Below are positions 14,681 through 33,899 of a stretch of DNA of 33,946 bases, one piece after another; the stretch's first letter is position 1; each line of letters starts with the position of its first letter. A program made the position numbers and the translations under genes. A model generated the notes under the pieces. That model did no database searches. It saw nothing but the letters and a program-made list of their open reading frames with translations, and had not been told where the DNA came from. Source of the stretch: Cyclobacteriaceae bacterium (lineage in GTDB: Bacteria > Bacteroidota > Bacteroidia > Cytophagales > Cyclobacteriaceae); assembly GCA_029858965.1 (NCBI GenBank), contig JAOUDZ010000039.1:1-33946 (forward strand), in the 5' to 3' direction.

Positions 14681-14748
14681 AAATGATTTAAGTCATTTGC
14701 GGCGATGACCTTGCTCATCCAAAGGGCGTCTCGGGGCATATAGTTTTA
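14681..14748 (+). promoter_or_regulatory. tandem FNR/CRP-like dyads plus -7 element, promoter of the regulator operon
   Basis: Dyad 1 is AAATGA-N6-TCATTT (14681-14698, core 14684-14695). Dyad 2 is GATGA-N6-TCATC (14705-14718, core 14706-14717). Their centres are 22 bp apart. TAGTTTTA at 14741-14748 matches the Bacteroidota TAnnTTTG -7 element with one mismatch and starts 29.5 bp after the centre of dyad 2. Transcription would begin near 14753, leaving a leader of about 47 bases before the small membrane protein at 14800. Confidence 0.6.
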
Positions 14749-14799
14749 GACTATTGAGAAACGGGTTAATCTACCGCGTAAAAGGTGGAATTTTTTGAT

Positions 14800-14958
14800 A
14801 TGAGTAATTCTTTTGTCCCTTTCAATTCACACCTGGTTGGCATCGTTTTGATGCCCACCGTATTGATTTGGGATGCTTGTATTATAATTCTTGCGGGTAC
14901 GACATGGTATTTGTTTCTCGCCATTGCCGTGATTTGGCAGTTTCGGGTTTCAACATAG
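14800..14958 (+). CDS. small single-span membrane protein, 52 residues
   Basis: ATG to TAG encodes 52 residues that are mostly hydrophobic (LVGIVLMPTVLIWDACIIIL then TTWYLFLAIAVIWQF), enough for one long or two short membrane segments. AAAGGTGG stands about 8 bases upstream, a good ribosome-binding site. The gene ends 15 bases before the start of the hybrid regulator and shares its promoter, so it is likely co-transcribed. No family recognised. A role as a membrane partner or signal input for the regulator is only a guess from position. Confidence 0.5.
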   Translation: MSNSFVPFNSHLVGIVLMPTVLIWDACIIILAGTTWYLFLAIAVIWQFRVST

Positions 14959-14973
14959 TCAATTGCATAAGTT

Positions 14974-16032
14974 ATGAGCCATAAGATTTTGTTAATTGAG
15001 GATGAAGCGGCAATGGCGGAGAATATTTCTGAAATTCTTGAGTTGGCGCACTACAACGTTACGATTGCTCCGAACGGAAAAATAGGTGTGGCATTGGCGC
15101 AGGAAAACCATCCGGATTTAATATTGTGTGATGTGATGATGCCTGAGCTTGACGGTTATGGGGTTATTAATATATTGAACAGTGACCCGGATACAGCAGC
15201 CATACCTTTTATCTTCCTTACGGCTAAAGCTGATCGGGAGGATGTTCGCGTAGGAATGAATTTTGGTGCGGATGATTACATCACAAAACCTTTTAGTAGC
15301 GCTGAACTACTGAAAGTGATAGAGACACGACTAAGAAAAGTAGAGCTGCTGAAGTCGGGTTCTGGAAAAGATCCGATGGATTCTTCTCATTTTTTTAATA
15401 AAACAAAAGAATTGCGGGAGTTTCAAAAATTATACGAGAACAGACCTGTTCGCTCGTACAAGCGTAAAGACCTGCTTTTCATGGAGGGGCAAATTCCAAA
15501 TGATCTCTATTATATACTGCAAGGCCAGGTCAAAACCTATAAGGTTAACTATGATGGCAAGGAGCTTATAACGGGCATATATGGTGCAGGGGAGTACTTG
15601 GGATATGTGCCACTACTGGAGGATAAGCCTTATGGTGAGCAGGCTGAAGTGCTTGAAGATGTACGGATTGCGGTGATACCTAAATCTGATTTTCTCGCGC
15701 TAATCTATTCTAGTAAAGATGTTGCCAGAAAGTTCATTAAAGCCCTTTCCAATAACCTTGATGAAATGGAGGAAAGACTGTTGAATCTGGCTTATCAGTC
15801 GGTAAGGCAGCGCGTGGCTGGCACTTTATTAAAACTGAATGAGAAATTCTCAAAACCGAATTCAGATGAACCGATTACCATTGCGCGCAGAGATATTTCC
15901 AATATTGTCGGAACCGCTACAGAGTCATTGAACCGTATTTTGACTGACTTTAAGACTGAAGGCCTGATCGAGACATCCGGGGCAGGCATAAAGATTATCA
16001 ACAAGGCCAAGCTTGAAAGGATACTGTATTGA
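14974..16032 (+). CDS. hybrid response regulator: REC + cyclic-nucleotide-binding fold + CRP/FNR helix-turn-helix
   Basis: 352 residues. Residues 1-122 are a receiver domain with acidic pocket Glu9/Asp10, phosphoacceptor Asp53, Thr83 and Lys105, all present. After a linker, about 155-250 form the CRP-type effector fold, and 278-350 carry the winged helix (RRDISNIVGTATESLNRIL at 305-323). Glu317 and Arg321 align with the recognition-helix Glu and Arg by which CRP and FNR read TGA/TCA. The only cysteine is Cys52, so there is no FNR-type iron-sulfur cluster; phosphorylation or a bound ligand is the more likely signal. No histidine kinase gene is in the window. Its own promoter carries two matching dyads, suggesting autoregulation. 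It is the best candidate to control the genes to its right. Confidence 0.9.
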   Translation: MSHKILLIEDEAAMAENISEILELAHYNVTIAPNGKIGVALAQENHPDLILCDVMMPELDGYGVINILNSDPDTAAIPFIFLTAKADREDVRVGMNFGADDYITKPFSSAELLKVIETRLRKVELLKSGSGKDPMDSSHFFNKTKELREFQKLYENRPVRSYKRKDLLFMEGQIPNDLYYILQGQVKTYKVNYDGKELITGIYGAGEYLGYVPLLEDKPYGEQAEVLEDVRIAVIPKSDFLALIYSSKDVARKFIKALSNNLDEMEERLLNLAYQSVRQRVAGTLLKLNEKFSKPNSDEPITIARRDISNIVGTATESLNRILTDFKTEGLIETSGAGIKIINKAKLERILY

Positions 16033-16283
16033 TAAGCATTGTACTGTGTATTTCTATATCCAGTTGCACTTGTCAAGTTCCCTATGTAGCGCAAACTGTT
16101 AGCGTCCTGGTTCTTAGATTTGGCTTTCCGCACAAACTTCAATGCTATCCGGAACGTCGTATAGTTTCAATTCATTAAAATGGATTAAATTAGGCGCCGG
16201 AAAGGAATTACCGTCAGGCCGTTCTTGTTTTCGATTCCCGCATTGACAAACGATCATAAACCGAAACTCATGAATTTTTCTCT

Positions 16284-18354: not shown

Positions 18355-20064
18355 CTAGTCTTCGGAAATGCGCTTGTTTGTTAGGATAACGAATTGCCCC
18401 GGCTCTAATTTTATTTTCAGAAAGTGCCTGCTGCCATCTTCATTTTTTAAGACATGGATTTTTCCGTGGTCACCATAACTAAACCGAAAAGTACTTCCTT
18501 CGGGATTTAAATGCCTGTCTACCCCAATATATTCTTCGTCCACGTTTATAAGCGAGTCATTGTAAACGATTAGTATTTCTTCGTCGTACAGGATCCTTGA
18601 GAAGGCGATCATACAGTCGGCGTAAATTGGAAGATGAAAGACTTTTCCATCGTTTGAAAAATCACGCATATACATCCGGCCAAATTTCAGCACAGCGCTA
18701 TTCTTCCTGATGGTTGCCAGTTTCCTGATTTCCTCATAGATTTTATTGGTTTTATTTAACACGTTGATGGAATCATCTTTCAAACTGAACATCGACTCTC
18801 TCACATTCCAGTCTCCTTCACCGCCTCCGCTAAATCCTTGTTCTGTGCCATAATAAATACATGGCGTGCCCAATGCACACAATAAGAAACCGACACCGGC
18901 GATTATTTGAGCTTCTGTCGCGTCATGTCCAAATCTCTTTTTAAAGGTCTGACCAACCTGGTCGTGGTTATCGAGAAAGGTCACCAAAAATTCCCCGAAC
19001 TCACCCCTTGACATCGCACTTTTGCGAAGTGATTCGTAACGTTCAATTAGTTTTTCAGGGGTATCCTCGCCAAGAATGACCTTGGACAAGACATGGTACA
19101 ATGGAAAATCCAATACAGAATTCAGTCCATAATATATCGCTGTATCCTCAACGGTAATGGCGGTTTTGGGGCCGATGTATTTGTTGTACATGTATTCAGG
19201 ACCAACGAGTTCACCAAAAAGGAAGAAGTTCTGCTTGCCAAGCTTGTATGCATACTCACGCATGTGAGAACAAAACTGGCTAATATCTTTTTCGCCCATA
19301 TGCTTTACGGCGTCAAGTCTGAATCCGTCAACATCCGTTTCCCGGATCCAATAACAATGAATTTTTGTTAAAATTTCCTGTATGTGCAGCGCCTCTGGTG
19401 AATCATCGTTCTTGAAGGTCTTGAGATCTTGAAAGTCACCCTCTTTTGTTTCAGGATAGCTGTCAAAGTTTCTGATTTGTCCCTTGCGCCAGTATAGGTC
19501 GGGATTTCTTAATTCTGTGGGTACCGGTTTATCTTCGTAGCGCCATCGACCAAAGGGAAATACAGCGCCGTTGTAGTAGTAATACGGAAGATCATTTGGA
19601 TAAAACCAGTTGTTGCCGGAGTGATGCAATACTATATCGAGAAATACACGCATATTGTAAGCGTGGGCAGTATCCACCAAATTAGCCAGGTCTTCAAGTG
19701 ACCCAAATCTTTTGTCTACTGCAGTGTAATCCTGGATGGCATAACCATGGTATGCTTCCTTATTATTCTCATATACCGGACTTAGCCACAAGGCAGTGCA
19801 GCCGAGGTCTCTAATATAGTCCAGGTGATTTGTTATGCCCCGTAATGTGCCGCCGCAACTTTTTTGCAATTGGTCCGCGGTTCCAAAGCCCTTGGTCTTG
19901 CCCTCAGCTTTTACGGGCTTTCGTTTATGGTCATCATGAAAACGATCTACCATAAGGAAGTAAATGAATTCTTCTCTCCATTCACGATTGCAATTTCTCC
20001 AGTAGGTTTTTCCCGACTTTGGAGAAAGGTCCAGATCGTTAATCGAGGTGATTTTTTCTTTCAT
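18355..20064 (-). CDS. cytoplasmic GH13 alpha-amylase family glycosidase
   Basis: 569 residues with no signal peptide, so it should act on internal alpha-glucans such as glycogen or maltodextrin. GH13 catalytic residues are present: nucleophile Asp251 in DGFRLDAVKH, acid/base Glu285 in FGELVG, and Asp368 in FLDNHDQ; the early GCTALWLSPVYEN and VFLDIVLHHSG segments are conserved regions of the barrel. The C-terminal 90 residues look like the usual beta-sandwich. Start ATG 20064. It is divergent from ftsH across a 225-base spacer that holds two TGA-N6-TCA dyads, so it may share the stress control; no convincing -7 element was found at the fixed distance for either direction. The 139 bases between it and the CocE-like gene show no clear terminator. 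Confidence 0.9.
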   Translation of the reverse strand: MKEKITSINDLDLSPKSGKTYWRNCNREWREEFIYFLMVDRFHDDHKRKPVKAEGKTKGFGTADQLQKSCGGTLRGITNHLDYIRDLGCTALWLSPVYENNKEAYHGYAIQDYTAVDKRFGSLEDLANLVDTAHAYNMRVFLDIVLHHSGNNWFYPNDLPYYYYNGAVFPFGRWRYEDKPVPTELRNPDLYWRKGQIRNFDSYPETKEGDFQDLKTFKNDDSPEALHIQEILTKIHCYWIRETDVDGFRLDAVKHMGEKDISQFCSHMREYAYKLGKQNFFLFGELVGPEYMYNKYIGPKTAITVEDTAIYYGLNSVLDFPLYHVLSKVILGEDTPEKLIERYESLRKSAMSRGEFGEFLVTFLDNHDQVGQTFKKRFGHDATEAQIIAGVGFLLCALGTPCIYYGTEQGFSGGGEGDWNVRESMFSLKDDSINVLNKTNKIYEEIRKLATIRKNSAVLKFGRMYMRDFSNDGKVFHLPIYADCMIAFSRILYDEEILIVYNDSLINVDEEYIGVDRHLNPEGSTFRFSYGDHGKIHVLKNEDGSRHFLKIKLEPGQFVILTNKRISED

Positions 20065-20184: not shown

Positions 20185-20210
20185 TGATGTGATTCAAATG
20201 ATATTTATCA
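20185..20210. promoter_or_regulatory. two FNR/CRP-like dyads between amylase and ftsH
   Basis: TTTGA-N6-TCAAA has its core at 20185-20196 and is one base from the E. coli FNR consensus. ATGATA-TT-TATCAT has its core at 20199-20210. Centres are 14 bp apart. They lie 121 bp upstream of the amylase start and 79 bp upstream of ftsH. The -7 spacing seen at the other promoters is not obvious here. Confidence 0.5.
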
Positions 20211-20289: not shown

Positions 20290-22221
20290 GTGGCGGAAAA
20301 ACCTAATCAGAAATCCCAACTTCCGCGTCCTAACCTGTGGGGCGGCTTACTGTTTGTTTTAGTTCTCATTGTCGTGGCCATCGTTGCTATCCCCGATTTT
20401 ATTTCGTCCAGCCAGGTAGTAACATGGCAGACATTTGAAAGGGATATTCTCAGCAAGGGTGCCGTTGAGAAGATTGTGGTAGTTAACAAGGAGACCGCCC
20501 AGGTTTATCTCAAGGAGGAATTCAAGAATGACTCATCTTTCACGGATGTTTTTAAATCACCATTGTGGGGTACGAATCATGGACCACACTATGCATTTAA
20601 CATTGGATCAGTTGAATCATTTGAAAGGAAGCTTGAGGAAGCAGAGCAGCATTATTCCCCGGAGGATAGGGTGAGTGTCAGCTATGTGGAGCAAAATAAC
20701 TTTGGCAACCTCATTTCATGGTTGATTCCATTGGTGATTATCTTTTTCTTATTTCGATTAGTCTTTCAGGCAAGGGGAGGAGGAGGTACTTCTATTTTTA
20801 ACTTTGGAAGGTCTACAGCGCGACTGCTGGAACAGGACCAGAAAAGCCCTGTGACTTTTGATGTTGTTGCAGGATTGGAGGAGGCAAAGCAGGAGGTAAA
20901 AGAGATTGTCGATTTCCTGAAAGACCCGGAACGTTACACGAAATTGGGTGCTAAAATTCCCAAGGGTGTTATCATTGTCGGTCCGCCCGGTACAGGCAAA
21001 ACACTCCTGGCAAAGGCAGTAGCGGGAGAGGCACGGGTACCCTTTTTTTCATTGTCGGGTTCTGAATTTGTTGAAATGTTTGTTGGTGTGGGCGCATCGC
21101 GCGTGCGTGATCTTTTTAAGCGCGCGAAAGAGAAAGCACCTTGCATCGTTTTTATTGATGAGATTGATGCCGTCGGAAGATCCAGGGGTAGAAATGCGAT
21201 GTATACTGGGGCCAATGATGAACGTGAAAGTACACTCAACCAATTACTTACAGAGATGGATGGATTCGGTACGAATACAGGAGTAATTGTGCTGGCTGCA
21301 ACAAACCGTGCTGATATACTTGATCCTGCGCTTCTCAGACCCGGGAGGTTTGACCGGCATATCTATCTTGAATTGCCAAATCAAAAGGAACGTGAGGAAA
21401 TATTTGAGGTTCATTTACGCCCTTTGGTTTTGGCAGAAAGTGTCGATACGGATTTTCTGGCAGCACAAACGCCTGGTTTCTCAGGCGCCGATATCGCCAA
21501 TATCTGCAACGAAGCAGCGCTTATTGCTGCCAGGCACAGAAAGGAGAAAGTTGAGAAGCAGGACTTTTTGGATGCGATTGACAGGATTGTTGCCGGTATT
21601 GAAAAGAAGAGTAAAATTATCTCTGCAGCCGAAAAAAAGATTATTGCCTATCATGAAGCCGGCCACGCTATTGTAAGCTGGTTCCTGGATGCCGTAGATC
21701 CCCTTGTTAAAGTTTCTATTATTCCGAGAGGCAAATCGCTGGGGGCATCCTGGTATTTGCCTGAAGAGCGACAGATAAAAACGCTAACGCAGCTAACGCA
21801 AAGGCTCTCTGCTTCGCTGGCGGGCCGCGCAGCCGAGGAAATCATCTTTGGTGAAGTTTCCTCAGGCGCACTTGACGATCTTGAGAAAGTTACAAAAGAA
21901 GCGTACGCCATGGTAGCCTACTATGGGTTTGACGCCAAGATCGGGAATGTTAGTTTCTTTGACTCCACCGGCAGGACGGAGACCGGGCTTCAGAAACCTT
22001 ACAGCGAAGATACCGGCAGACTCATCGACGAAGAGGTCCGAAAACTTGTTGAAGAGTGCTATCAACGCGCGATAGAAGTACTTACGCAACACAAGCAGGA
22101 ACTTATTGCGCTAGCGGAGTTACTCCTGCAGAAGGAGGTGATCTTCAAAGAGCAAATCGAAAAGGTTCTTGGAAAACGGGCTTCAGCGGAATCTGCAAAG
22201 CTTGCTGTCGTTAAACCTTAA
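20290..22221 (+). CDS. ftsH: ATP-dependent zinc metalloprotease FtsH
   Basis: 643 residues, inner-membrane AAA+ protease that degrades unassembled or damaged membrane proteins. Seen: first membrane helix about 16-36, a periplasmic stretch of about 100 residues, second helix about 143-160, Walker A GPPGTGKT at 231-238, Walker B IVFIDEID, the second-region-of-homology arginine segment ([17 protein letters not shown]), zinc motif HEAGH at 455-459 and the third ligand Asp in GALDDLEK near 530. Start is GTG 20290. Only 11 bases separate it from the erythromycin esterase-like gene, so the two form an operon. Bacteroidota usually carry a housekeeping ftsH elsewhere, so this may be an accessory stress copy; that is inference from context. 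Confidence 0.95.
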
Positions 22222-23610: not shown

Positions 23611-24255
23611 TCAGGAGGCTTTCTTGAGGCGTTCTTCTTCCCACTTTTCAACAAAGCCGATGGTCTCCTCATCGGAAAGACTGCTGAAGTATTCGTAGCC
23701 TTGCCCCACAGCATAGAAAAAAGATGGCGTTTCCAGAATGATCACATCATCGACCATTTTCCCCAGTTCATAGACCATACGCTGTCCTGAAATTGGCGCA
23801 GCCACAACAATCTTCCCGGCCTTCTTTTTCTTACAGAGTGCAATAGCCGAAAACAAGGTTGCGCCGGTTGCGATTCCATCGTCAGCGAGGATTACCGTAC
23901 GACCACTTATGTTAGGGAGTGGCTTACCTTTCCTGAGTTTACTGATTCTTCGTTCAATTTCCTTTTTTTCCCGCTCAAGGATGTCACTGATTTCTTCTTC
24001 AGAAACATTCTCTGCGTAGTCAGACAGATAAACGCTGCCATCTTCAGCAACTGCGCCAAAGGCTGCTTCCGGATTGGATGGGTGCCCCAGCTTTCTGGTG
24101 ATAATAAGCGCCAGATCTGCATTCAGGTAGCGCGCTACATAGTAGGCAATTGCTGCTCCCCCTCTGGGTATGCCAAGCACGAGCGCACCCTTGTCCCGAT
24201 ATGCAGCAAGCGCCTTGCTGAGCTTTTCCCCGGCATCTTTGCGATCAATGAACAT
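23611..24255 (-). CDS. phosphoribosyltransferase-fold protein
   Basis: 214 residues. Type I phosphoribosyltransferase fold with the PRPP loop VILADDGIATGAT at 121-133 (the Asp pair 125/126 included) and the GIPRGGAAIAY segment at 28-37. ITRKLGHPSNPEAAFGAVAEDG (52-73) is characteristic of the stand-alone subfamily that is often fused to dienelactone hydrolase-like or erythromycin esterase-like domains. The acceptor base is unknown and some members may not be true transferases. It ends 49 bases from the converging esterase gene and starts opposite the basic helical protein, with two dyads in the shared 183-base spacer. Confidence 0.85.
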   Translation of the reverse strand: MFIDRKDAGEKLSKALAAYRDKGALVLGIPRGGAAIAYYVARYLNADLALIITRKLGHPSNPEAAFGAVAEDGSVYLSDYAENVSEEEISDILEREKKEIERRISKLRKGKPLPNISGRTVILADDGIATGATLFSAIALCKKKKAGKIVVAAPISGQRMVYELGKMVDDVIILETPSFFYAVGQGYEYFSSLSDEETIGFVEKWEEERLKKAS

Positions 24256-24318
24256 ACAGCAATATTAAAAAGGTATAAATCTCACGCTGCTATAATACCA
24301 TTCTATTTATTCCAGCGA

Positions 24319-24372
24319 AATGATAAACATCATTGGATAACCTGATTTTTGACTCATCTGACAAAAATCAGA
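24319..24372. promoter_or_regulatory. two FNR/CRP-like dyads in a divergent spacer, with a long inverted repeat
   Basis: AATGAT-AAAC-ATCATT lies at 24319-24334 and TCTGA-N6-TCAGA at 24357-24372; centres are 38 bp apart. CTGATTTTTG (24342-24351) and CAAAAATCAG (24362-24371) form a perfect 10-base inverted repeat overlapping the second dyad. On the minus strand TATTATAG (24290-24297) starts 29.5 bp from the first dyad centre but has two mismatches to TAnnTTTG. Control of the phosphoribosyltransferase is therefore plausible; the + direction has no good -7 element. Confidence 0.5.
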
Positions 24373-24438
24373 GACGGGAAGGGATATCGATCATAGGAAG
24401 ATTAGAGCAGAACTGAAACCTTGTGTAAAAAATACACC

Positions 24439-24948
24439 ATGGCTAAGAAAACAATTAAAGCGAAGAAAACCGTAAAAAAAACGATTCCAAGAAAAACAAC
24501 TGCGAAAAAGGCAGGACCCGTGACGACCGTTGATTCGGTAGAAAATTCCTGGGCCAGGTTGTTTGTCTTGGCTGCGCATTGGCAGTCCGACATGCAATTC
24601 TTTTCGGATGAATTGCGTTTTTTGAGAAGTTTGGTAGATAAGTACTTTCTCTGGTTAATTGACGAGAATCATATTGAAGCCACAAAAAAAATGGCAACTG
24701 AACTGGGAAAGATTGAAAAAAACAGATCCCGGCTGGATCTGAGTGTGGGGAATCATCTAAAGCATCTGACAAATCTTATCGAAAATCCATTTGCTCATGA
24801 CGCGCAATCATGCAAGGATGAACATGCCAAACTCGAAGATTGGCTCGCGGATTTTTCAAAAGATTTTCGTGAGGTGAAGAAAGGGATATTTCAGTTAACC
24901 GAGCAGGTTATGGAATCCAAAAAGGCGCAATATGTGCTTGGTCAGTAA
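24439..24948 (+). CDS. unknown helical protein with lysine-rich N-terminal tail
   Basis: 169 residues from ATG 24439; a TTG six codons earlier (24421) is less likely. The first 27 residues are rich in Lys/Thr with several KK and AKK steps, like a histone H1-type tail able to bind nucleic acid or polyphosphate. The rest is predicted helical and charged (for example HWQSDMQFFSDELRFLRSLV, then repeated Glu/Lys-rich helices), resembling a coiled-coil bundle; no catalytic motif is visible and no family is recognised. It is 31 bases upstream of the P-loop kinase gene and probably shares its transcript. Confidence 0.75.
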   Translation: MAKKTIKAKKTVKKTIPRKTTAKKAGPVTTVDSVENSWARLFVLAAHWQSDMQFFSDELRFLRSLVDKYFLWLIDENHIEATKKMATELGKIEKNRSRLDLSVGNHLKHLTNLIENPFAHDAQSCKDEHAKLEDWLADFSKDFREVKKGIFQLTEQVMESKKAQYVLGQ

Positions 24949-24979
24949 TGAATGAACTGCAAACGCAAATTAGCCTGGC

Positions 24980-25492
24980 ATGATCATCATCGTCGCAGGC
25001 TTACCAGGATCTGGCAAAAGCTTCTTTGCTGAAAAGCTAGCAGCGAAACTGGGTGCTGCATATGTTAACAGCGATAGGATAAGGACAGAAGTGAATGCGC
25101 TGGGTAAATATTCGCTGCGGGACAAGATGGTTATTTATGAAAAAATGGCTGGCCTGACAAGAGAAATTCTTGAGAAGCAGTCAACTGTTGTCGTTGATGC
25201 GACTTTCTATCACGATTCCATGCGCGAGCTTTTTTATCGCGTGGCCAGGGACTGTTCATCAGGAATTAGCTGGATTCACGTAACGGCAAGTGAAGCTTTG
25301 GTTAGAACGCGGCTTGGGAAACCTAGGGTAAACAGTGAGGCCGATTTCGGCGTCTATCAGAAAATCCGGGATCAATTTGAGGAAATGACTATGCCCCATC
25401 TGACAATGGAATCTACAAATGACAACATAGAATCTATGTTGACAAAAGCAATCGCGTACATTAAGGGCATACATGAAAGCATATCAAATTGA
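24980..25492 (+). CDS. P-loop AAA-type kinase, 170 residues
   Basis: Small nucleotide-binding protein with Walker A GLPGSGKS at 7-14, a VNSDRIR segment (about 34-40) and VVVDATFYHDS (Walker B-like) near 72-82, matching the zeta/gluconate-kinase-like AAA family. Its stop overlaps the start of the next gene by 20 bases, so translation is coupled. In many proteobacteria and actinobacteria this domain is fused behind an APH-like kinase domain in one polypeptide (mycobacterial Rv2004c, from memory); here the two are separate and in the opposite order. The substrate is unknown. A zeta-type toxin was considered, but no antitoxin gene is adjacent. Confidence 0.85.
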   Translation: MIIIVAGLPGSGKSFFAEKLAAKLGAAYVNSDRIRTEVNALGKYSLRDKMVIYEKMAGLTREILEKQSTVVVDATFYHDSMRELFYRVARDCSSGISWIHVTASEALVRTRLGKPRVNSEADFGVYQKIRDQFEEMTMPHLTMESTNDNIESMLTKAIAYIKGIHESISN

Positions 25493-26477
25493 ACAACTCG
25501 CAAGGCATGGATTGTTTTGCCGCCAATCGGTGCAAGGTAAAGTTGAGGAGACGCATATCTCATGGGTTATTCTTTCTGGCAAAAATGCGTTCAAGATAAA
25601 GAAGCCATTGAAGCTTCCGTTTTTGGATTTTTCAACACTGCATCTCCGTAAATATTTCTGCAACCGGGAGCTTGTATTGAACAGCCGTTTCAGTGATATC
25701 TATCAGGATGTTATTCCGGTACAGCTGAACAACGGTAGGTTTTGTCTTGGGAAATGTCAGGGTAAGGTCGTCGATTATGCTGTCCAGATGAAAAGGCTTA
25801 TGACGGCCAAACGGCTGGATAACGTGTTGCGATCAGGGAAGCCCAAAATTGAGCGGATCAGATTGCTGGCTGAGTCTACCGCTTTGTTTCATCATCGCGC
25901 TGAAATAGTACACTCGCCTTTCAATATAAAGCGGGCGCGCGATACGTTTAATGATATCAGGTTATTGCATCACTTTATACAAAAGGCGATGGGTGCCGGC
26001 TACGCAAAACGTATAGCGCGTGCGGTTCAGTGGAGCGATGATTTTCTAAGCACACATGCCAGGCGACTGCAGCAAAGGATTGATTCCGGCTTCAAACGGG
26101 ATGTGCACGGCGATCTTCACAGCGGCAACATCTTTTTGTACCGTAAACCTGTCCTCTTTGATTGTATTGAATTCAATGACGTATATCGACAGATTGACTT
26201 GTTGTATGAGGTGGCTTTTCTCTGCATGGATTTTGAGTCCTTCAATCAACCACGGCTTGCTGATTTGTTTTTCAAGGTATACAATAAGAATATGCGTTGC
26301 ATTGAGGTTGAGGAAGACAAGCGAATTTTCAATTATTTTAAATGTCTGCGGGCAAATGTTCGTGCAAAAGTACATGCGATGCGCGCGATGCAGCGGCGTG
26401 ACTCAAATGAAGCCAGAGACTATCTTGATGAAGTGCGAAGGTACCTTTTGCACATGAAGGAATACATGGGTAATTAA
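25473..26477 (+). CDS. APH-like phosphotransferase, partner of the P-loop kinase
   Basis: 334 residues. KIKKPLKLPFLDFSTL (41-56) supplies the Lys-bearing N-lobe typical of the family that is elsewhere fused to an AAA domain. HGDLHSGN (212-219, catalytic Asp214) is the Brenner loop, and FDCIEFN with Asp230 is the metal-binding DFG-like motif. Despite the name, aminoglycoside resistance is unlikely; chromosomal members of this subfamily lie in stress or dormancy gene sets. It overlaps the P-loop gene by 20 bases in another frame, so no fusion protein is made, but co-production is ensured. The 232 bases downstream lead into the htrA promoter. Confidence 0.85.
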   Translation: MKAYQIEQLARHGLFCRQSVQGKVEETHISWVILSGKNAFKIKKPLKLPFLDFSTLHLRKYFCNRELVLNSRFSDIYQDVIPVQLNNGRFCLGKCQGKVVDYAVQMKRLMTAKRLDNVLRSGKPKIERIRLLAESTALFHHRAEIVHSPFNIKRARDTFNDIRLLHHFIQKAMGAGYAKRIARAVQWSDDFLSTHARRLQQRIDSGFKRDVHGDLHSGNIFLYRKPVLFDCIEFNDVYRQIDLLYEVAFLCMDFESFNQPRLADLFFKVYNKNMRCIEVEEDKRIFNYFKCLRANVRAKVHAMRAMQRRDSNEARDYLDEVRRYLLHMKEYMGN

Positions 26478-26606: not shown

Positions 26607-26671
26607 TGACGAAGGTCTGATGAAAGTTTGATAAAAATCATTTCAAAATATAGCGGCTGATTAGAATTTTG
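26607..26671 (+). promoter_or_regulatory. htrA promoter with FNR/CRP-like dyads
   Basis: TGAT-AAAA-ATCA (26629-26640) is the main dyad. A degenerate one, TGA-N6-TCT (26607-26618), has its centre exactly 22 bp upstream. GAATTTTG (26664-26671), one mismatch from TAnnTTTG, begins 29.5 bp after the main dyad centre. This predicts a start near 26676, about 34 bases before the htrA ATG. Confidence 0.55.
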
Positions 26672-26709
26672 CCAAAACATTAAATGTGCATTGTAGCATA
26701 AAACAAGGT

Positions 26710-28191
26710 ATGAAAAAAGTTCTAACAATACTGTTGGTTGCTAATCTGGCGGTTGCCGTGTCGAGTTGCGAAGGTCAGGTTAAGCAAACAGGCGCCAGCA
26801 AAGAAGTTTACTCAATTGTTGCAAAGCAGCTTCAAGCCGGCCTCGATACGGGATCGCTGAAAGCAAAAAACAATTCTGGTATTGATTTCAGGGAAGCCGC
26901 CCGCAAGGTAACGCCCTGTGTAGTTCACGTCAATTCTAAATGGAATGCTCCTGAAGACCAGCAGGAGCTGAAAGAAGATAATCCTTTCAGGGATTTTTTT
27001 GGAGATGAATTTTGGGGAGATTTCTTCAGGCCTTTCCGACCACATGGTCCCAGGCAAGGTACTGCGTCGGGCGTCATTCTCACAAGTGACGGATACATTG
27101 TCACAAACAACCATGTGATCGAAGACGCAGATGAAATAGAAGTCGTCTTGCATGATCAACGATCATATAGAGCGAAGATCGTCGGAGCTGATCCTAAGAC
27201 TGATTTAGCATTGCTCAAAATCGATGAAACCAATTTATCATTCCTGCCATATGGAAATTCTGATGATGTGGAAGTAGGCGAATGGGTATTGGCTGTGGGC
27301 AATCCTTTTAACCTGGCTTCCACGGTGACTGCCGGGATCGTGAGCGCTAAAGCCCGGAATATCAATATCCTGAGAGACCGGGAAGCGATTGAATCTTTCA
27401 TTCAGACCGATGCTGCCGTCAATCCGGGAAATAGCGGTGGAGCGCTTGTTAATTTGGATGGACAATTGATTGGCATTAACGCTGCAATAGCAACGCCTAC
27501 TGGCGCTTTCGCTGGCTATTCATTTGCCATTCCTGTGAACATCGTCAAGAAGGTGGCTGATGACCTGTTGCAATTTGGCAGTGTGCAAAGAGGATACCTG
27601 GGTATCATGATTCGCGATATGACCGGGAGTCTTGCCAAGGATTTGGATTTGAAGTTTACACCAGGCGTCTACGTGGATAGCCTTGTTCAGGATGGTGCCG
27701 CGGCAGAGGCAGGGCTGAAGCAAGGTGATATTATCACAAAAATTGACGGCGCGAAAGTTGAATCCTCTCCGCAACTGCAGGAAATTGTGGCCCGACATAG
27801 GCCTGGTGAAAAATTGCTGATCACTTTTAACAGAAAAGGTCAGGAAAAAAATATACCAGTTGTGCTGAAAGCCACGAGCGGAACAGTTGCAGTCAGCAGG
27901 AAAAGCAGTGAGGCAGTTTTGGAGATGTTGGGCATTGATGTATCGGAGATCACAGCGCGGCAGAAGAAGCAACTGGGTATCCAGCACGGGCTTGAAGTCA
28001 CACGTATTGTCAAGGGTAAGGTAAGTGAGTTCACAACGATGAAGGAAGGATTTATTATTACCAGGATTAACAATATACCCGTGAAATCAAAAGATGATCT
28101 CGCCGATATTATAAGCAAGAAGGGTGGTGTGTTGATTGAAGGTGTTTATCCGGGAAGCAAGGAAGTAATTTATTACGGAGTTGGAATCTGA
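26710..28191 (+). CDS. htrA: HtrA/Deg serine protease, probable lipoprotein
   Basis: 493 residues from ATG 26710; an upstream GTG at 26686 would add eight unlikely residues. The leader ends in a lipobox-like VSSC with Cys20, so the protease is probably lipid-anchored rather than soluble in the periplasm. The trypsin-like domain has the full triad: His135 in TNNHVIEDAD, Asp165 in DPKTDLALLK and Ser242 in NPGNSGGAL. A PDZ domain follows (about 290-375) with GYLGI and AAEAGLKQGDIITKIDG. The C-terminal 90 residues look like a second, divergent PDZ domain. It degrades or refolds damaged envelope proteins. The upstream dyads suggest it belongs to the island's regulon. Confidence 0.9.
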   Translation: MKKVLTILLVANLAVAVSSCEGQVKQTGASKEVYSIVAKQLQAGLDTGSLKAKNNSGIDFREAARKVTPCVVHVNSKWNAPEDQQELKEDNPFRDFFGDEFWGDFFRPFRPHGPRQGTASGVILTSDGYIVTNNHVIEDADEIEVVLHDQRSYRAKIVGADPKTDLALLKIDETNLSFLPYGNSDDVEVGEWVLAVGNPFNLASTVTAGIVSAKARNINILRDREAIESFIQTDAAVNPGNSGGALVNLDGQLIGINAAIATPTGAFAGYSFAIPVNIVKKVADDLLQFGSVQRGYLGIMIRDMTGSLAKDLDLKFTPGVYVDSLVQDGAAAEAGLKQGDIITKIDGAKVESSPQLQEIVARHRPGEKLLITFNRKGQEKNIPVVLKATSGTVAVSRKSSEAVLEMLGIDVSEITARQKKQLGIQHGLEVTRIVKGKVSEFTTMKEGFIITRINNIPVKSKDDLADIISKKGGVLIEGVYPGSKEVIYYGVGI

Positions 28192-28197
28192 TTTGCC

Positions 28198-28265
28198 GTG
28201 ATTTAAAATCACAACGGTTTGATGACGGTCATCATGGTCTAAGGACTTTGTTTAGTTTAATATTG
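28198..28265 (+). promoter_or_regulatory. ytxH promoter with tandem dyads
   Basis: GTGATTT-A-AAATCAC (28198-28212) and TGATGAC-G-GTCATCA (28220-28234) are both perfect seven-base dyads with centres 22 bp apart. The second contains two overlapping TGA-N6-TCA frames. TAATATTG (28258-28265), one mismatch from TAnnTTTG, begins 29.5 bp from the centre of the frame at 28223-28234. The predicted start is near 28270, 30 bases before the ytxH ATG. Confidence 0.6.
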
Positions 28266-28299: not shown

Positions 28300-28557
28300 A
28301 TGAATCCAGGAAAAGCATTATTAGGCGTATTTGCAGGGATTGCAGCAGGCGCAGTATTAGGTGTGTTATTTGCACCCGAAAAAGGATCGAACACACGACA
28401 GAATCTTGTAAAAAAAGGCGATGATTTGGCGCACGCGTTGAATCATAAGATCGACGAAAAGTTTGATGAACTAATGAGCACGATTACCGGAAAATTCAAA
28501 AAGGACAAATCGCGCAATGATGAGGTTCCATCGAACAAAGCTGAATTCGTGGGTTAA
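28300..28557 (+). CDS. YtxH domain protein
   Basis: 85 residues. The N-terminal glycine-rich hydrophobic helix (LLGVFAGIAAGAVLGVLFAP) followed by EKGSNTRQNLVKKGDDL is the YtxH signature: one membrane span, then a cytoplasmic amphipathic tail. YtxH proteins are general-stress proteins in Bacillus and common in Bacteroidota; their biochemical role is unknown. It has its own dyad-bearing promoter and is followed 9 bases later by the PEBP gene, so the two form an operon. Confidence 0.85.
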   Translation: MNPGKALLGVFAGIAAGAVLGVLFAPEKGSNTRQNLVKKGDDLAHALNHKIDEKFDELMSTITGKFKKDKSRNDEVPSNKAEFVG

Positions 28558-28566
28558 TTTGACTAC

Positions 28567-29031
28567 ATGCCACGTCAAACAGTAGCTGCCTATGGCATAT
28601 TGGATGTCTCTAGCGAGGCTTTCACGCAAAACGGAACAATTCCCGTCAGGTATGCATGCGATGGTGACGATGTGAGTCCGCCACTGACGATCAACAAAAT
28701 TCCTGCACAAGCAAAAAGTCTGGCACTCATAGTCGAAGACCCGGATGCACCTGGCGGGACTTGGCTGCATTGGTTGGCTTGGAATATTCCCGTAGTCAAA
28801 CAAATTGGCGAAAATGAAGTGCCAGGTGATCAGGGGATGAATGATTTTGGCAAGATTTCATATGGGGGACCTTGCCCTCCTTCGGGTACACACCGGTATA
28901 TTTTTAAGGTTTACGCGCTGGACGATTTACTGGACCTTACTGAAGGTTCCAGCAAAGCGGAATTGGAAACGGCAATGCAAAATCATATCCTCGCGCATGG
29001 CCAGTTAACAGGTGTCTACAAAAGGCCATAG
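28567..29031 (+). CDS. YbhB/YbcL family (PEBP, Raf kinase inhibitor-like) protein
   Basis: 154 residues, no signal peptide. PEBP fold with both ligand-pocket motifs: DPDAPGGTWLHWLAWNIP (about 58-75) and YGGPCPPSGTHRYIFKVYALD (about 98-118), of which the central PPSGTHRY segment is the most conserved. These proteins bind small anionic or phosphate ligands; the bacterial role is not established. It begins 9 bases after ytxH and should be co-transcribed with it. Start ATG 28567. Confidence 0.9.
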   Translation: MPRQTVAAYGILDVSSEAFTQNGTIPVRYACDGDDVSPPLTINKIPAQAKSLALIVEDPDAPGGTWLHWLAWNIPVVKQIGENEVPGDQGMNDFGKISYGGPCPPSGTHRYIFKVYALDDLLDLTEGSSKAELETAMQNHILAHGQLTGVYKRP

Positions 29032-29465: not shown

Positions 29466-29510
29466 CTAACCTACAGCCGGATATTATCCAACGGCAATGA
29501 CTTTTGTCAT
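29466..29510 (-). promoter_or_regulatory. FNR/CRP-like dyad with minus-strand -7 element
   Basis: ATGAC-TTTT-GTCAT (29497-29510) is a perfect dyad. On the minus strand TAGGTTAG (complement of 29466-29473), one mismatch from TAnnTTTG, begins 30.5 bp from its centre, pointing at the 79-residue gene with a leader of about 115 bases. For nadE on the + strand no -7 element stands at the same distance; TATCTTTA near 29574 may be its own. Confidence 0.45.
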
Positions 29511-29623: not shown

Positions 29624-31588
29624 ATGAAGATTGCACTTGCCCAGATGGAAGTATTACCAGGCTTTGTGGATAAAAATATTGGAAAGATGCTCGCCATGAT
29701 TCAGCAAGCCAAGACAGCGCAGGCCGATTTGATTGTTTTTCCTGAGTTGTGCGTAAGCGGTTATGTCCTTTCCGATCATTGGACCAATGAGGCCTTCTGC
29801 AATGCGCTGATGGAGTACAATGAGGTTTTACTTGAAGCCAGCATGGGGATTGCCATCGCCTATGGCAATATTTACCTGGATAAGGATATCAATGCCCGCT
29901 GGAACGACACCGCCTATCATCCCAATAAGGATGGAAGAACCCGAAAATATAACGCCGTATATGTTATGCAGAACGGGCGCTACGCTAAGCGTGAAAATGA
30001 GAACAATGTTCTGCCTGAAGGCGTCCACCCGAAAACACTCCTTCCGGCATACAGAATCTATGATGATGCACGTTACTTTTTTTCCCTGCAGGATACCGCC
30101 AATGATGCTGGTGTTCCTATTTCATCGCTCGCACAGCCATTTGTTCTTGAAACCAACACGGGAGCGGTAAAGATTGGTTTCGAAGTGTGCGAAGACCTGT
30201 GGTGTAACGACTACAGGGTTTCGGGCAAGCCGGTAAATATTACGAATGTGCTGATTGAAAATGGGGCAGAGATGATTGTTAACATTTCTGCCTCTCCATG
30301 GAATCATGGCAAGAACGCCTCACGCGACAGGCGTGTCGCATTTCTTTATGAGCAGGCTTTAGAGCATTTCGTTCCTTTTTTTTATGTGAACAATGTAGGT
30401 GTGCAAAACAATGGTAAAAACTTTGTCACTTTCGATGGCGGCTCGACTGTTTATAACAAGAACGGGAAGCCGGTGCTGTTCGCAGCGAAACCTTACCAGG
30501 AGGAGTTGATCGTATTTGAGGATTCCATTGTGAAGCAAAACCCGGTTGAAAGGAATGAAGGCTCTGAGATAAGCCAGAAGTATGATGCTATCATAAATGG
30601 AATTAAGCACATGAAGACCTTCAAAAGGGATACTGAGCCGCTTCAATTTGTGATTGGCTTAAGCGGAGGAATAGATAGCGCGGTGGTTGCATCTTTGCTG
30701 ACGATTGCCTGTGGAAGTGAAAATGTCATAGCCGTTAATATGCCTTCCAAATACAACCAAGGTAGAACGAAAGACATTGCTGAAGGGGTTGCGAATGCCC
30801 TGGGCATTGAATACATCAGTATTCCGATTGACGCCTTGGCCTCGGTCCATAACGATGTCTTTGAGAAACTGGATAGAAAGTTCGAACCCCCAACCTGGTC
30901 GGCTGATCTTTCAAATGAAAATATCCAGGCAAAAGTCCGGGGCACATCCATTCTGTCAAACTTTGCCGGGAGGTATAATCGATTCTTTACCTGCAATGGC
31001 AATAAACTTGAAATTGCACTGGGATATACAACATTATATGGCGATGTAAATGGTGCACTTGCGCCTATTGGCGATTTAACCAAGAGCGAAGTGTATGCGC
31101 TTGCAAGATTTTTAAACGAAGATGTTTTCAGAGAGCCGATCATACCTCTGGCGTTGCTGCCAGATGAATTATTTTCTTTCGACGGCCAGTGGGTAATCCC
31201 CTCTGCTGAACTGAAAAAGGATCAGATCGATCCAATCCGTTTTGGATATCATTGTGCCCTGCTGGTAGTTTTCACCCAGTATATGCATAACACGGCAGAA
31301 GACATTTGTGAATGGTATCTGCAAGGTACGATGGAAAAAAATCTTGGGATTTCCAGGGCGCTGATGGTAAGATGGGGGATGGATGATCCAAATGCATTTG
31401 TGGAAGATTTGGAGTGGTTTGTTGCTACAATTCAAAAGAATGTTTTCAAACGCGTTCAGTCTCCCCCGATTATTATTACAAGCCGGTCTGCCTATGGATA
31501 TGATATCAGGGAGAGTATCTTGCCTTCGATGACTACTTCGCGATACAAGGCACTCAAAGCGAAAGTTCTGAAGAAGGAAAAATATTGA
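29624..31588 (+). CDS. nadE: glutamine-dependent NAD+ synthetase
   Basis: 654 residues. Converts deamido-NAD to NAD using glutamine and ATP, the last step of NAD synthesis. The N-terminal nitrilase-type glutaminase domain has the triad Glu41 (FPELCVSGY), Lys122 (AKRENE) and Cys189 (GFEVCEDLW). The C-terminal synthetase domain has the ATP pyrophosphatase loop SGGIDS at 347-352 and GYTTLYGDVNGALAPIGDLTKSEVY features near 465-490. Both domains look complete. It is a single-gene unit: 277 bases upstream with the dyad at 29498, and 377 bases downstream without a convincing gene. Confidence 0.95.
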   Translation: MKIALAQMEVLPGFVDKNIGKMLAMIQQAKTAQADLIVFPELCVSGYVLSDHWTNEAFCNALMEYNEVLLEASMGIAIAYGNIYLDKDINARWNDTAYHPNKDGRTRKYNAVYVMQNGRYAKRENENNVLPEGVHPKTLLPAYRIYDDARYFFSLQDTANDAGVPISSLAQPFVLETNTGAVKIGFEVCEDLWCNDYRVSGKPVNITNVLIENGAEMIVNISASPWNHGKNASRDRRVAFLYEQALEHFVPFFYVNNVGVQNNGKNFVTFDGGSTVYNKNGKPVLFAAKPYQEELIVFEDSIVKQNPVERNEGSEISQKYDAIINGIKHMKTFKRDTEPLQFVIGLSGGIDSAVVASLLTIACGSENVIAVNMPSKYNQGRTKDIAEGVANALGIEYISIPIDALASVHNDVFEKLDRKFEPPTWSADLSNENIQAKVRGTSILSNFAGRYNRFFTCNGNKLEIALGYTTLYGDVNGALAPIGDLTKSEVYALARFLNEDVFREPIIPLALLPDELFSFDGQWVIPSAELKKDQIDPIRFGYHCALLVVFTQYMHNTAEDICEWYLQGTMEKNLGISRALMVRWGMDDPNAFVEDLEWFVATIQKNVFKRVQSPPIIITSRSAYGYDIRESILPSMTTSRYKALKAKVLKKEKY

Positions 31589-31644: not shown

Positions 31645-31660
31645 CATGATATTCATCATG
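31645..31660. promoter_or_regulatory. FNR/CRP-like dyad after nadE
   Basis: CATGAT-ATTC-ATCATG is a perfect six-base dyad (core TGA-N6-TCA at 31647-31658). It lies 57 bases after the nadE stop and is followed by GCTTTTTTG, so it might instead be the stem of a weak nadE terminator. TTTCTTTA at 31682-31689 starts 29.5 bp after its centre with two mismatches to TAnnTTTG. Confidence 0.35.
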
Positions 31661-31965: not shown

Positions 31966-32223
31966 ATGAAAGCAAGCGGGCAAAATTTACCTTATAAAAT
32001 ATCCGAGTACATTCAGTCGAAATTTAGAGAAGATTTTCTGTTCGAAGTGAAGCAGGTTCGGCCGATTGGAGGACAATTGATGTATACGGTGGAGGTATCC
32101 AAGGACGGGTACATTTACACCTTGAATTTCAATGTGGAAGGCGACCTTATTGCAGAAGAAGCAGCGCAAGCCTTTCCGCCGGATTCGCACGACGAGAATA
32201 CCTACGGAGACTTAACGGCTTGA
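31966..32223 (+). CDS. hypothetical protein, 85 residues
   Basis: 85 residues, soluble. A basic N-terminal helix (YKISEYIQSKFREDFLFEVKQVR) is followed by beta-type stretches (LMYTVEVSKDGYIYTLNFNVEGDLI) ending in an acidic tail. The alternation resembles a small PepSY-like alpha/beta unit, but there is no signal peptide and no firm family match. It lies after the strong hairpin at 31859, so it needs its own promoter; none was identified. It converges with the hydrolase gene. Confidence 0.65.
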   Translation: MKASGQNLPYKISEYIQSKFREDFLFEVKQVRPIGGQLMYTVEVSKDGYIYTLNFNVEGDLIAEEAAQAFPPDSHDENTYGDLTA

Positions 32224-32364: not shown

Positions 32365-33006
32365 ACGGGTTAAATATTGTATAAACCAATCGCCCGATAT
32401 CTCAGCAACCTTTTCCAGCGTTCCAGGTTCCTCAAAGAGATGTGTGGCACCTTTTATGATTTCCAGACGCTTTATCCCGGTCATTTCTTCCATTGCTGCA
32501 CGGTTAAGCGAAATAACTTCTTGATCAAGTTCGCCCACAATCAGTAGGGTAGGTGCTTCAAGTCCCTGCAAATGATGTATGGCCATGTCCGGTCTGCCCC
32601 CGCGCGATACAACGGCATGGACTTCCTTTTGCAGCGTCGATGCGGCAACGAGCGCAGAAGCTGCACCGGTGCTGGCACCGAAATATCCTATCGGAACAGC
32701 TTTAATACGGGCCATGTTTAAAAGGAATCCTGTTACTTGTATGAGTCGACTTGAAAGCAGGTCGATATTGAACCGGTTGCTGTAGACGTTGTCTTCTTCC
32801 CTGGTAAGTAAATCAAATAAAAAAGTTCCCAATCCAATCCGATGAAGATGTTGCGCTACAAAATTGTTTCGGGGACTGAACCTGCCGCTGCCGCTTCCGT
32901 GTGAGAAAACGACAAGGCCTGTAGTATGTTCCGGAAAAACAAGTTCACCAGGCAATACAACATTCCCAATTTTTATTTCCAGCGACATACCAGATGCAAC
33001 ATTCAT
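32344..33006 (-). CDS. dienelactone hydrolase-like alpha/beta hydrolase
   Basis: 220 residues, no leader. Alpha/beta hydrolase fold with oxyanion segment VVFSHGSGSGRFSPRNN (32-48), nucleophile Ser112 in GASTG, Asp161 in VGELDQEV and His189 in GATHLFEE, a complete triad in the right order. This subfamily is often found fused to the C-terminus of a phosphoribosyltransferase domain like that at 23611-24255, so the two separate proteins here may act in one pathway. The substrate is unknown. A strong hairpin at 33051-33078 separates it from the upstream BON gene. Confidence 0.85.
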   Translation of the reverse strand: MNVASGMSLEIKIGNVVLPGELVFPEHTTGLVVFSHGSGSGRFSPRNNFVAQHLHRIGLGTFLFDLLTREEDNVYSNRFNIDLLSSRLIQVTGFLLNMARIKAVPIGYFGASTGAASALVAASTLQKEVHAVVSRGGRPDMAIHHLQGLEAPTLLIVGELDQEVISLNRAAMEEMTGIKRLEIIKGATHLFEEPGTLEKVAEISGDWFIQYLTRKDNTKS

Positions 33007-33050
33007 CTTGTTTCAGGTTTTGAACACTTTCACAAAAGGCAGAACCAAAT

Positions 33051-33078
33051 AAAAAGGCGGAATGCTTTCCGCCTTTTT
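33051..33078 (-). terminator. terminator of the BON gene
   Basis: AAAAAGGCGGAA (33051-33062) pairs with TTCCGCCTTTTT (33067-33078) around a four-base loop, with T-runs on both strands. It lies 25 bases past the BON stop on the minus strand. Confidence 0.75.
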
Positions 33079-33102
33079 TACATGGAGTCATCACCAGCCT
33101 GC

Positions 33103-33777
33103 TTACGCAAAAACCTCAGTATCGATATCAATTTGATTATCAACAATAAGCACGCCGGGGGAGGACCACGCAATTCTTTCGGCCTCTTCTTTTTCTGCCC
33201 ACGACCTCACCGTTCCTGAGAGCTTCACTCGGCTACCCGAGGACTCAAGTTTAATGGCCGAAGAGTCGATCGTCGCACTTCTGTGGAAGGCTTCAGCGAT
33301 TCTACTCTTGATTTCCTTTGTGTCTATAGCGCGAGATTTAATGGAGATATTATTGCTGACGCCTTTAACGCCCAGAAGATTTTCCACACTATTTCGAGCG
33401 GAACTCTTTTGGTACTCCCACTCCACTTCTCCGGTTAATGTTACCCAGCCGTTGTCCACAACCACTTCAATCTTGTCCTCATCCACAGCGCTGCTCCAAC
33501 GCAGCGCATTTTTTATGGCTTCAGCAATTTGCGTGTCGGTTCTGGCCAGGAGTTTGTCCATTTTCACTTCCACATCGGAGGCAACTACTTTTACGCCATG
33601 TACACGTTGCGCGGCGCGTTCAGCAGCGATTTTCTTACTGTATGTGTCCACTAATCCGGAAAGTGTTACCACGCCATCATTGGCGGAAACGCCAATCTGA
33701 GTATGCACATCCCTTAGTTGTGCATCCCATTTGATTTCGGCCATTACATCTCTTTGAAGTTCATCGTTAGTTTTCAT
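33103..33777 (-). CDS. triple BON-domain protein
   Basis: 224 residues with three BON repeats, about 5-72, 78-147 and 152-220. Each shows the alpha-beta-beta pattern with a central glycine ([39 protein letters not shown]). BON domains are thought to bind membranes or phospholipids and occur in OsmY-type stress proteins. There is no signal peptide, so unlike OsmY this one should be cytoplasmic. Start ATG 33777; a dyad-bearing promoter lies about 80-120 bases upstream and a strong terminator follows, so it is a single-gene unit of the same regulon. Confidence 0.9.
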
Positions 33778-33856
33778 AATGGTTACTAGTTAAAAAATGA
33801 TAAAATAGATGATTTCAGTGTCTCAGCTTAATAAATCCCCTTTGTTTGTTGATGTA

Positions 33857-33899
33857 CTAAATTACTGTAGGGTAGGGACGAAGTCGATGACGAACGTCA
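33857..33899 (-). promoter_or_regulatory. BON gene promoter with FNR/CRP-like dyad
   Basis: TGACG-AA-CGTCA (33888-33899) is a perfect dyad. On the minus strand TAATTTAG (complement of 33857-33864), one mismatch from TAnnTTTG, starts 29.5 bp from the dyad centre. The predicted start is near 33852, 75 bases upstream of the BON ATG. The remaining bases to the window edge hold nothing recognisable. Confidence 0.55.

Follow-up and report, generated by a model that had tools for sequence, protein, structure and literature searches.

TGA-N6-TCA dyads with preferred spacing in a Cyclobacteriaceae genome and a receiver-CRP fusion protein as their probable reader

The DNA analyzed here, hereafter the window, is the whole 33,946-nt contig C131 of the 5.1-Mb genome of a Cyclobacteriaceae bacterium. 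Its right part encodes a CRP/FNR-type regulator followed by further genes, and the spacers between these genes are rich in one inverted repeat, TGA-N6-TCA, which we refer to as the dyad. A first-pass annotation of the window had taken the dyads for sites of CRP/FNR proteins and had proposed that the genes to the right form a single 19-kb regulon under one such factor. We present evidence that the dyads are CRP/FNR-type operators whose reach is wider than this contig. A CRP/FNR-type protein, which we call REC-CRP (REC-CRP1 where a second copy must be told apart), is indeed encoded right behind the first pair of dyads, in the following arrangement:

14974–16032, forward strand: gene of REC-CRP, 352 residues, with a receiver, a cNMP-binding-type fold and a Crp-type helix-turn-helix (Pfam)
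14684–14695, forward strand: distal dyad of the tandem before REC-CRP, ATGATTTAAGTCAT including flanks, predicted center −63.5
14706–14717, forward strand: proximal dyad of the tandem, TGACCTTGCTCA, 22 bp from the distal dyad, predicted center −41.5
14741–14748, forward strand: −7 box TAGTTTTA, matching TAnnTTTG at 5/6 positions, predicted transcription start at about 14753

The dyad occurs 28 times in the whole window against 11.5 ± 3.3 times in dinucleotide shuffles, and none of 100 shuffles reached 28. The right spacers (16 spacers between 14401 and 33946, 3,115 b) contain 15 copies, where base composition predicts 1.0 and where 1,000 Markov simulations gave 1.16 ± 1.07 copies with a maximum of 5. 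Among 832 inverted three-base dyads (64 triplets by 13 gaps, 0–12), TGA with a gap of 6 was the commonest in these spacers (15 copies), followed by TTT with a gap of 11 (11 copies); TGA dyads at each of the other gaps from 0 to 15 were found 0–5 times. We also counted dyads in 20 stretches of the same genome picked by contig number alone (240 kb, of which 37.9 kb is spacer), a comparison of spacers with coding DNA that had been suggested as a check. These stretches presented 17 dyads in spacers (0.45/kb) and 78 in coding sequence (0.39/kb), so that random spacers fall far below the right spacers: 1.4 dyads would be expected there at the background rate (Poisson P for at least 15 of about 3e-11), and the observed density is about 10 times this background. 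The extended form ATGAYNNNNRTCAT was found six times in the spacers of the window, never in the 37.9 kb of background spacer and 73 times in the whole genome, and several other stretches of the genome outside the window also show a high density of spacer dyads. The same motif stands out in 80 loci of many Bacteroidota around homologs of REC-CRP, the closest named ones coming from Chryseolinea, Parachryseolinea, Dawidia and Ohtaekwangia. Their spacers hold 469 dyads and, once AAA and TTT dyads are set aside, enrichment is highest for TGA with a gap of 6, with 108 copies against 13.5 expected in the 12 closest loci and 361 against 65 in the other 68. The flanks in these loci favor ATGAY-N4-RTCAT, and both the inner and the outer bases of the dyad differ between copies.

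The placement of the dyads followed two rules, neither of which had been used in picking the sites, nor had the composite described below. Across the 80 loci, 106 of the 154 dyad pairs lying 10–70 bp apart were separated by 22 bp and 12 by 23 bp, all other distances being represented by at most five pairs each; 98 pairs remained at 22 bp once near-copies were removed, and a 22- or 23-bp pair was present in 52 of the 80 loci. When upstream regions were aligned on the dyad, the sequence TA..TTT emerged at offset 35, counted from the start of the dyad to the start of the box. We scored such −7 boxes against the six fixed positions of TAnnTTTG with a threshold of at least 5/6, counting dyads in divergent spacers twice (555 oriented dyads). 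Boxes were found 111 times at offset 35, 80 times at offset 57 (35 + 22), 26 times at 58 and 20 times at 36, with a mean of 5.0 per offset at offsets other than 34–36, 57 and 58. The same two offsets were preferred in the window (4/22 and 2/22 against a mean of 0.13; binomial P of 3e-5 for the four) and in 20 further loci of the same genome (L129–148; 11/62 and 9/62 against 0.55), most of which had been picked for holding an extended site and which, being enriched by choice, were not used to measure enrichment. According to PMC9723704, the sigma-A box TAnnTTTG of Flavobacterium psychrophilum spans −12 to −5, and offsets of 35 and 57 from such a box would therefore center the dyads at −41.5 and −63.5; in silico, the proximal dyad is predicted to occupy the position of a class II activator. 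Finally, the composite of a dyad, 23 b and TANNTTTG was detected 200 times in 39 genomes against 18 times for the reversed pattern and was present in 35 of the 39, including nine composite sites against two reversed ones in the genome of the window. Because of the preferences for 22-bp pairing and for a fixed distance to the −7 box, operator function is very likely, and we have high confidence in reading these sequences as CRP/FNR-type operators. This much of the first-pass annotation is upheld, also by the place of the dyads before stress and microaerobic genes in related genomes.

The other dyads in the right spacers of the window are as follows:

20185–20196, no strand assigned: dyad TGATGTGATTCA between the divergent alpha-amylase-family (18355–20064, reverse strand) and ftsH (20290–22221, forward strand) genes; the standard offsets hold no good −7 box
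20199–20210, no strand assigned: dyad TGATATTTATCA, extended form ATGATATTTATCAT, in the alpha-amylase-family/ftsH spacer; −7 match of 3/6 at offset 35 on either strand
24321–24332, reverse strand: dyad TGATAAACATCA, extended, before a phosphoribosyltransferase gene (23611–24255, reverse strand)
24268–24275, reverse strand: −7 box TACCTTTT of the 24321 dyad, at offset 57, as expected of a distal site
24359–24370, forward strand: dyad TGACAAAAATCA before the gene group 24421–26477; −7 match of 4/6 at offset 57
26629–26640, forward strand: dyad TGATAAAAATCA before a DegQ-like protease gene (26686–28191); −7 box GAATTTTG at 26664–26671
28223–28234, forward strand: dyad TGACGGTCATCA, extended, before YtxH and PEBP genes (28300–29031); −7 box TAATATTG at 28258–28265
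29498–29509, forward strand: dyad TGACTTTTGTCA, extended, before an NAD synthase gene (29624–31588); −7 match of 4/6 at offset 57
31647–31658, forward strand: dyad TGATATTCATCA, extended, 319 b before a small open reading frame (ORF; 31966–32223); −7 match of 4/6 at offset 35
33888–33899, reverse strand: dyad TGACGAACGTCA before a BON-domain gene (33103–33777, reverse strand); −7 box TAATTTAG at 33857–33864, reverse strand
33929–33940, no strand assigned: dyad TGATCTTCCTCA at the contig end, where the reverse strand offers no good −7 box

The positions given by the first-pass annotation (14684, 14706, 20185, 20199, 24321, 24359, 26629, 28220/28223, 29498, 31647 and 33888 on the right and 9231 on the left) all carry the dyad. 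Its list for the right spacers was incomplete, lacking 14488, 33021 and 33929; it also lacked a dyad at 107, on the left edge, which falls in a predicted gene. The dyads at 28220 and 28223 overlap, and only the latter has a −7 box at a standard offset. Counting these two as one, six of the eleven right-hand places listed have a box of at least 5/6 at offset 35 or 57 on the gene-facing strand. The dyad at 9231 has no box at the usual offsets, the one at 14488 has a box at offset 58 only and the one at 33021 has none of at least 5/6 at the usual distances; given these poor boxes, 14488 and 33021 may be chance occurrences. The spacer 16033–16283, before the X-Pro peptidase gene, contains no dyad, and 33021 is poor; a dyad is thus not a feature of every transcription unit, and the proposal that all genes to the right belong to one regulon is not supported in this form. 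In the dyad-led group 24421–26477, the protein encoded by 24421–24948 begins with a lysine-rich stretch and matches no Pfam family, and 25473–26477 encodes an APH-like protein just below the Pfam cut-off.

REC-CRP matched the Pfam families Response_reg (E = 2.7e-27), cNMP_binding (PF00027; 1.8e-21) and HTH_Crp_2 (PF13545; 2.4e-14), and solved CRP chains matched its residues 159–340. The phospho-acceptor D53 and K105 are invariant in all 82 full-length homologs, as are a Glu and an Arg of the recognition helix, residues with a role in reading TGA. No CxxC was found in the first 45 residues, where the receiver domain lies. Within the aligned stretch GEYLGYVPLLEDKPYGEQAEVLE of the 82 homologs, the two commonest residues per column give no Arg-Ser; in E. 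coli CRP, cyclic AMP is held by an Arg-Ser pair and a Glu, which are not the common residues here. A dyad precedes the gene in 29 of the 30 cases, out of 81 homologs in the 80 loci, in which 60 b or more of upstream DNA is free. A tandem with 22-bp spacing lies before the REC-CRP homolog itself in L049, L052, L053, L056 and L057, and one with 23-bp spacing in L050. In L058 (spacing of 22 bp) and L051 (23 bp), where kinase and REC-CRP genes form a pair, the tandem precedes the kinase gene. Apparently, REC-CRP is autoregulated from its upstream tandem. The predicted 220-b leader of the gene also holds a 52-residue hydrophobic ORF (14800–14958, forward strand) with no counterpart of similar sequence in five homologous leaders: those of L053 and L056 have small ORFs of other sequence, and those of L049, L050 and L052 have none of at least 25 codons. 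Two REC-CRP homologs are encoded in L057 (10028–14777), with identities of 65% and 48% to the copy in the window; the gene of the second lies directly behind a PAS kinase.

Sensor kinases frequently adjoin REC-CRP genes. A kinase of one family lies directly upstream on the same strand of 53 of the 84 genes in the REC-CRP cluster (two of whose members are short, the factor of contig C80 discussed below among them), and 41 of the 69 members of the kinase cluster present a FixL PAS signature. The best PDB match of the kinase in L083 was FixL (E = 1.8e-28, residues 7–142). In the genome of the window, the start of a PAS kinase of the L050 type (108 residues, 64% identical) is cut by the end of contig C2, and a dyad is found between a UspA gene and this truncated start (L131, C2:3712–4571). 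This kinase might be the sensor that the window lacks.

Among genes with 60 b or more of free DNA upstream, dyads preceded 13 of 20 in the window, 336 of 780 in the REC-CRP loci and 13 of 130 in the randomly chosen stretches of its genome (dyads in divergent spacers count for both genes). By family, and counting all loci, dyad-led members made up 51/84 for UspA, 55/70 for CBS, 48/62 for the kinase, 10/10 for Hsp20, 7/9 for a CcoI-like ATPase, 5/5 for a cbb3-type subunit and 4/4 for a radical-SAM protein, and only 1/5 for an AMP-ligase-like family; CBS, Hsp20, ATPase, cbb3 subunit, radical SAM and kinase were each named from the Pfam result of one member and the other families by sequence reading. 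Dyad-bearing stretches elsewhere in the genome of the window hold, by Pfam, genes for Hsp20, S30AE (of the ribosome-hibernation type), dodecin, DUF2267, DUF892, PPDK and LOG-type proteins, a ScdA/hemerythrin gene and a nos-type gene; UspA genes are present too, and sequence reading adds operons that look pyruvate-dehydrogenase-like and ATPase-like as well as an FNR-like gene; FtsH, the DegQ-like protease, BON and YtxH proteins and NAD synthase also lie by dyads in this genome. On contig C80 (L144, C80:1–20000), five spacer dyads (18495–18856) lie between a small cytochrome-like gene and a PPDK-like one, and the same contig carries the nos-type gene, the ScdA/hemerythrin gene and the FNR-like factor. 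The families that adjoin the dyads suggest a low-oxygen or energy-stress survival response. With 73 extended sites and other dense stretches scattered over the genome, the regulon is not bounded by the 19 kb first proposed. Conservation upstream of orthologs, which had been named as support for the proposal, is strong at the family level and patchy gene by gene: among homologs of the BON gene (33103–33777) in genomes of the same genus, a dyad lies within 300 b upstream in one of six (one start was not found), and in the locus set two of six members of the family are dyad-led, that of the window included.

The dyads are not tied to REC-CRP alone. We compared Usp genes from genomes with REC-CRP with those from genomes lacking a full-length REC-CRP among the listed homologs, fetching 30 loci per group, using open frames at the Pfam match and dropping L250 and L262 from the latter group. 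A dyad within 300 b was present in 17/30 and 15/28 loci, respectively, and 22-bp pairs also occur before Usp genes in genomes without REC-CRP. Since these genomes keep their dyads about as often, the operators are independent of REC-CRP, and we rejected the idea that this protein alone explains the motif. Whole-genome counts of ATGAYNNNNRTCAT in the 39 genomes were likewise discarded as a proxy for REC-CRP: they do not separate spacers from coding DNA, and the reversed-pattern control gave 2–59 hits. All 11 stand-alone CRP/FNR factors from genomes without REC-CRP (L037–L047, of Cytophagales type) present the VGTATE-type helix common to the REC-CRP proteins, and eight of them present an N-terminal CxxC, making them possible iron-sulfur FNR proteins of Bacteroidota. 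In only four (L037, L044, L045 and L047) does a dyad lie no more than 350 b from the start of the factor's own gene; the distance is 67–69 b in L044 and L047. Because dyads and VGTATE factors exist without REC-CRP, the operator grid is older or wider than this protein. In a tree of the CRP parts (28 hand-chosen rows), REC-CRP and stand-alone factors fell near each other with weak support, and the C80, C132 and C191 proteins of the genome of the window were on long branches.

Control by a single factor, as first proposed, is not supported in this genome, which has six PF13545 matches in all, including a second REC-CRP. This protein, REC-CRP2, is encoded on contig C212 (L130, C212:30000–49999), is 69% identical to REC-CRP1 and has its own adjoining kinase. 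Its gene lies directly before what reads as an exopolysaccharide-type gene with GATGATCGTGGTCATC in front, and L054 and L055 repeat this gene order with similar GG-centered sites. Among the six proteins, the VGTATE-type helix is confined to the two REC-CRP proteins and is absent from those of C80, C132 and C191; no stand-alone VGTATE factor is among the six, leaving REC-CRP1 and REC-CRP2 as the best candidates in this genome. REC-CRP1 (14974–16032) is probably the main reader.

From the dyads, their spacing rules, the dyads before the regulator gene and the adjacency of kinases in related genomes, we infer binding, phosphorylation, activation and a signal in a Bacteroidota circuit of the CRP/FNR-activator type, an explanation that we consider probable as a whole. 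A PAS histidine kinase would phosphorylate D53 of REC-CRP, in which a FixJ-like receiver is fused directly to a CRP/FNR output module, and would thereby switch on DNA binding. One dimer would bind the dyad centered at −41.5, adjoining RNA polymerase on a TAnnTTTG promoter in a class II-like manner, often together with a second dimer two helical turns (22 bp) farther upstream; centered at −63.5, the latter would face the same side of the DNA. Acting at the 14684/14706 tandem, REC-CRP would raise its own expression, and the dyad-led genes together would constitute a survival response to low oxygen or energy stress. We lean, with little margin over even chances, toward oxygen or redox as the signal.

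Several observations weigh against this explanation. The REC-CRP gene of the window has no adjoining kinase of the cluster, the kinases near its closest homologs are of PAS or CHASE3-PAS type without the FixL signature, and the only FixL-like PAS match in its genome is partial, 36% identical and at the end of contig C2. At five of the eleven listed places no box of at least 5/6 was found at offset 35 or 57 on the gene-facing strand; none of the nine composite sites of the genome lies in the window, whose boxes reach 5/6 at best, and G010 and G036 have a REC-CRP homolog and no composite site. Protein and motif did not covary: with N in place of I in the helix, there was no clear change in the flanking bases. 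Several Usp loci of the genome have no spacer dyad (e.g., L175, L176, L178, L180, L186 and L187), and a family of the cytochrome-c oxidase type (L103 cluster) is dyad-led in only 1/7. Gene starts came from a simple home-made caller. Finally, the near-equal Usp counts with and without REC-CRP leave room for other readers, and REC-CRP2 and the FNR-like factor of C80 could read some of the sites.

Indeed, the operators might be genuine and read mainly by REC-CRP2 or by the C80 factor, with REC-CRP1 in a minor or specialized role. REC-CRP2 has the adjacent kinase that REC-CRP1 lacks, the C80 factor adjoins the ScdA/hemerythrin gene and lies near the nos-type gene, spacer dyads occur in both neighborhoods, and dyads are kept in genomes without REC-CRP. 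We nevertheless regard this as unlikely, given the tandem directly before REC-CRP1 and its near homologs, the dyad before nearly all homologs with free upstream DNA and the absence of a VGTATE-type helix from the C80, C132 and C191 proteins. It is highly improbable that the dyads lack a regulatory role and reflect base composition or a decayed repeat. In favor of this reading, spacers outside the islands resemble coding DNA in dyad density; the 15 copies against about one in the right spacers, the 22-bp and −7 box peaks over many loci and the excess of composite sites in 39 genomes (200 against 18) speak against such an origin, and the differences in inner and outer bases between copies against a repeat. 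Chance or composition was rejected on the enrichment in the right spacers, the background of the same genome and the −7 box peak.

A different question is what the circuit senses. It might respond to carbon or energy status, in the manner of MalR or CRP, rather than to oxygen or redox. PMC8510549 places a CRP/FNR homolog of Saprospiraceae near MalR and predicts carbon sensing, and amylase-family and ketohexokinase genes lie beside sites of the window. That prediction may, however, concern other CRP/FNR homologs, and the FixL-type PAS kinases beside many REC-CRP genes, the dyads before the cbb3-type oxidase and CcoI-like ATPase families and the N-terminal CxxC of most stand-alone factors all point away from carbon, which we consider an unlikely signal. 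More tentatively, and at slightly less than even chances, the −41.5/−63.5 grid may be an old Bacteroidota operator system for low-oxygen and dormancy genes on which sensors have been swapped, the reader being either FNR-like or a merger of FixJ and FixK driven by a phosphorelay that is often FixL-like; in the lineage of the window, the merger would then have lost its link to FixL and given rise to separate stress and exopolysaccharide copies.

We found little literature on CRP/FNR-type control in environmental Bacteroidota, and no description of a REC-CRP regulator or of a Bacteroidota 22-bp tandem in the literature searched, which covered few subscription journals. The 22-bp tandem together with the −7 box distance provides a simple signature by which a stress/low-oxygen regulon can be searched for in genomes, and REC-CRP is a named fusion protein whose phosphorylation and oxygen dependence are directly testable.

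A close parallel among known systems is FixLJ-FixK of Alphaproteobacteria, which likewise combines a PAS kinase, a receiver and a CRP/FNR-type activator without an iron-sulfur cluster and has the cbb3-type oxidase among its targets. According to PMC4999443, FixK and FnrN share one box, TTGANCNNGATCAANG, which contains TGA-N6-TCA; the two proteins, of which only FnrN has an iron-sulfur cluster, recognize closely similar boxes in Alphaproteobacteria, and FixLJ-FixK replaced FnrN in Caulobacterales. On that account, the pair FnrN/FixK would parallel the stand-alone factors and REC-CRP on their shared operators. In contrast to FixLJ-FixK, receiver and CRP/FNR output are one protein here, so that the middle transcription step is absent; the operators frequently form tandems with 22-bp spacing at TAnnTTTG promoters; the dyad-led genes prominently include UspA, CBS and Hsp20 families; and the copy in the window has no FixL neighbor. 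FixJ itself has a receiver with a phosphorylatable Asp and a Lys, as REC-CRP does with D53 and K105, and a LuxR-type helix-turn-helix as its output, where REC-CRP has HTH_Crp_2. With FNR and FnrN the system shares the TGA...TCA dyad, the predicted class II position, anaerobic-type targets and, in 8 of the 11 stand-alone relatives, an N-terminal CxxC; E. coli FNR has a set of four cysteines, and the protein of the window has a receiver domain in place of the cysteine region. The fold, the helix-turn-helix and the half-site spacing are those of CRP, whose site is TGTGA-N6-TCACA; the flanks here are ATGAY-N4-RTCAT instead, and the residues that hold cyclic AMP in E. coli CRP are not the common ones in the aligned stretch of the 82 REC-CRP homologs. 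Finally, the dormancy regulator DosR of Mycobacterium, whose DNA-binding domain is of the NarL/LuxR type, exerts two-component control over scattered genes among which those for universal stress proteins and Hsp20 abound; the dyad-led genes resemble this set, with a CRP-type DNA-binding domain in the candidate regulator and a different operator.

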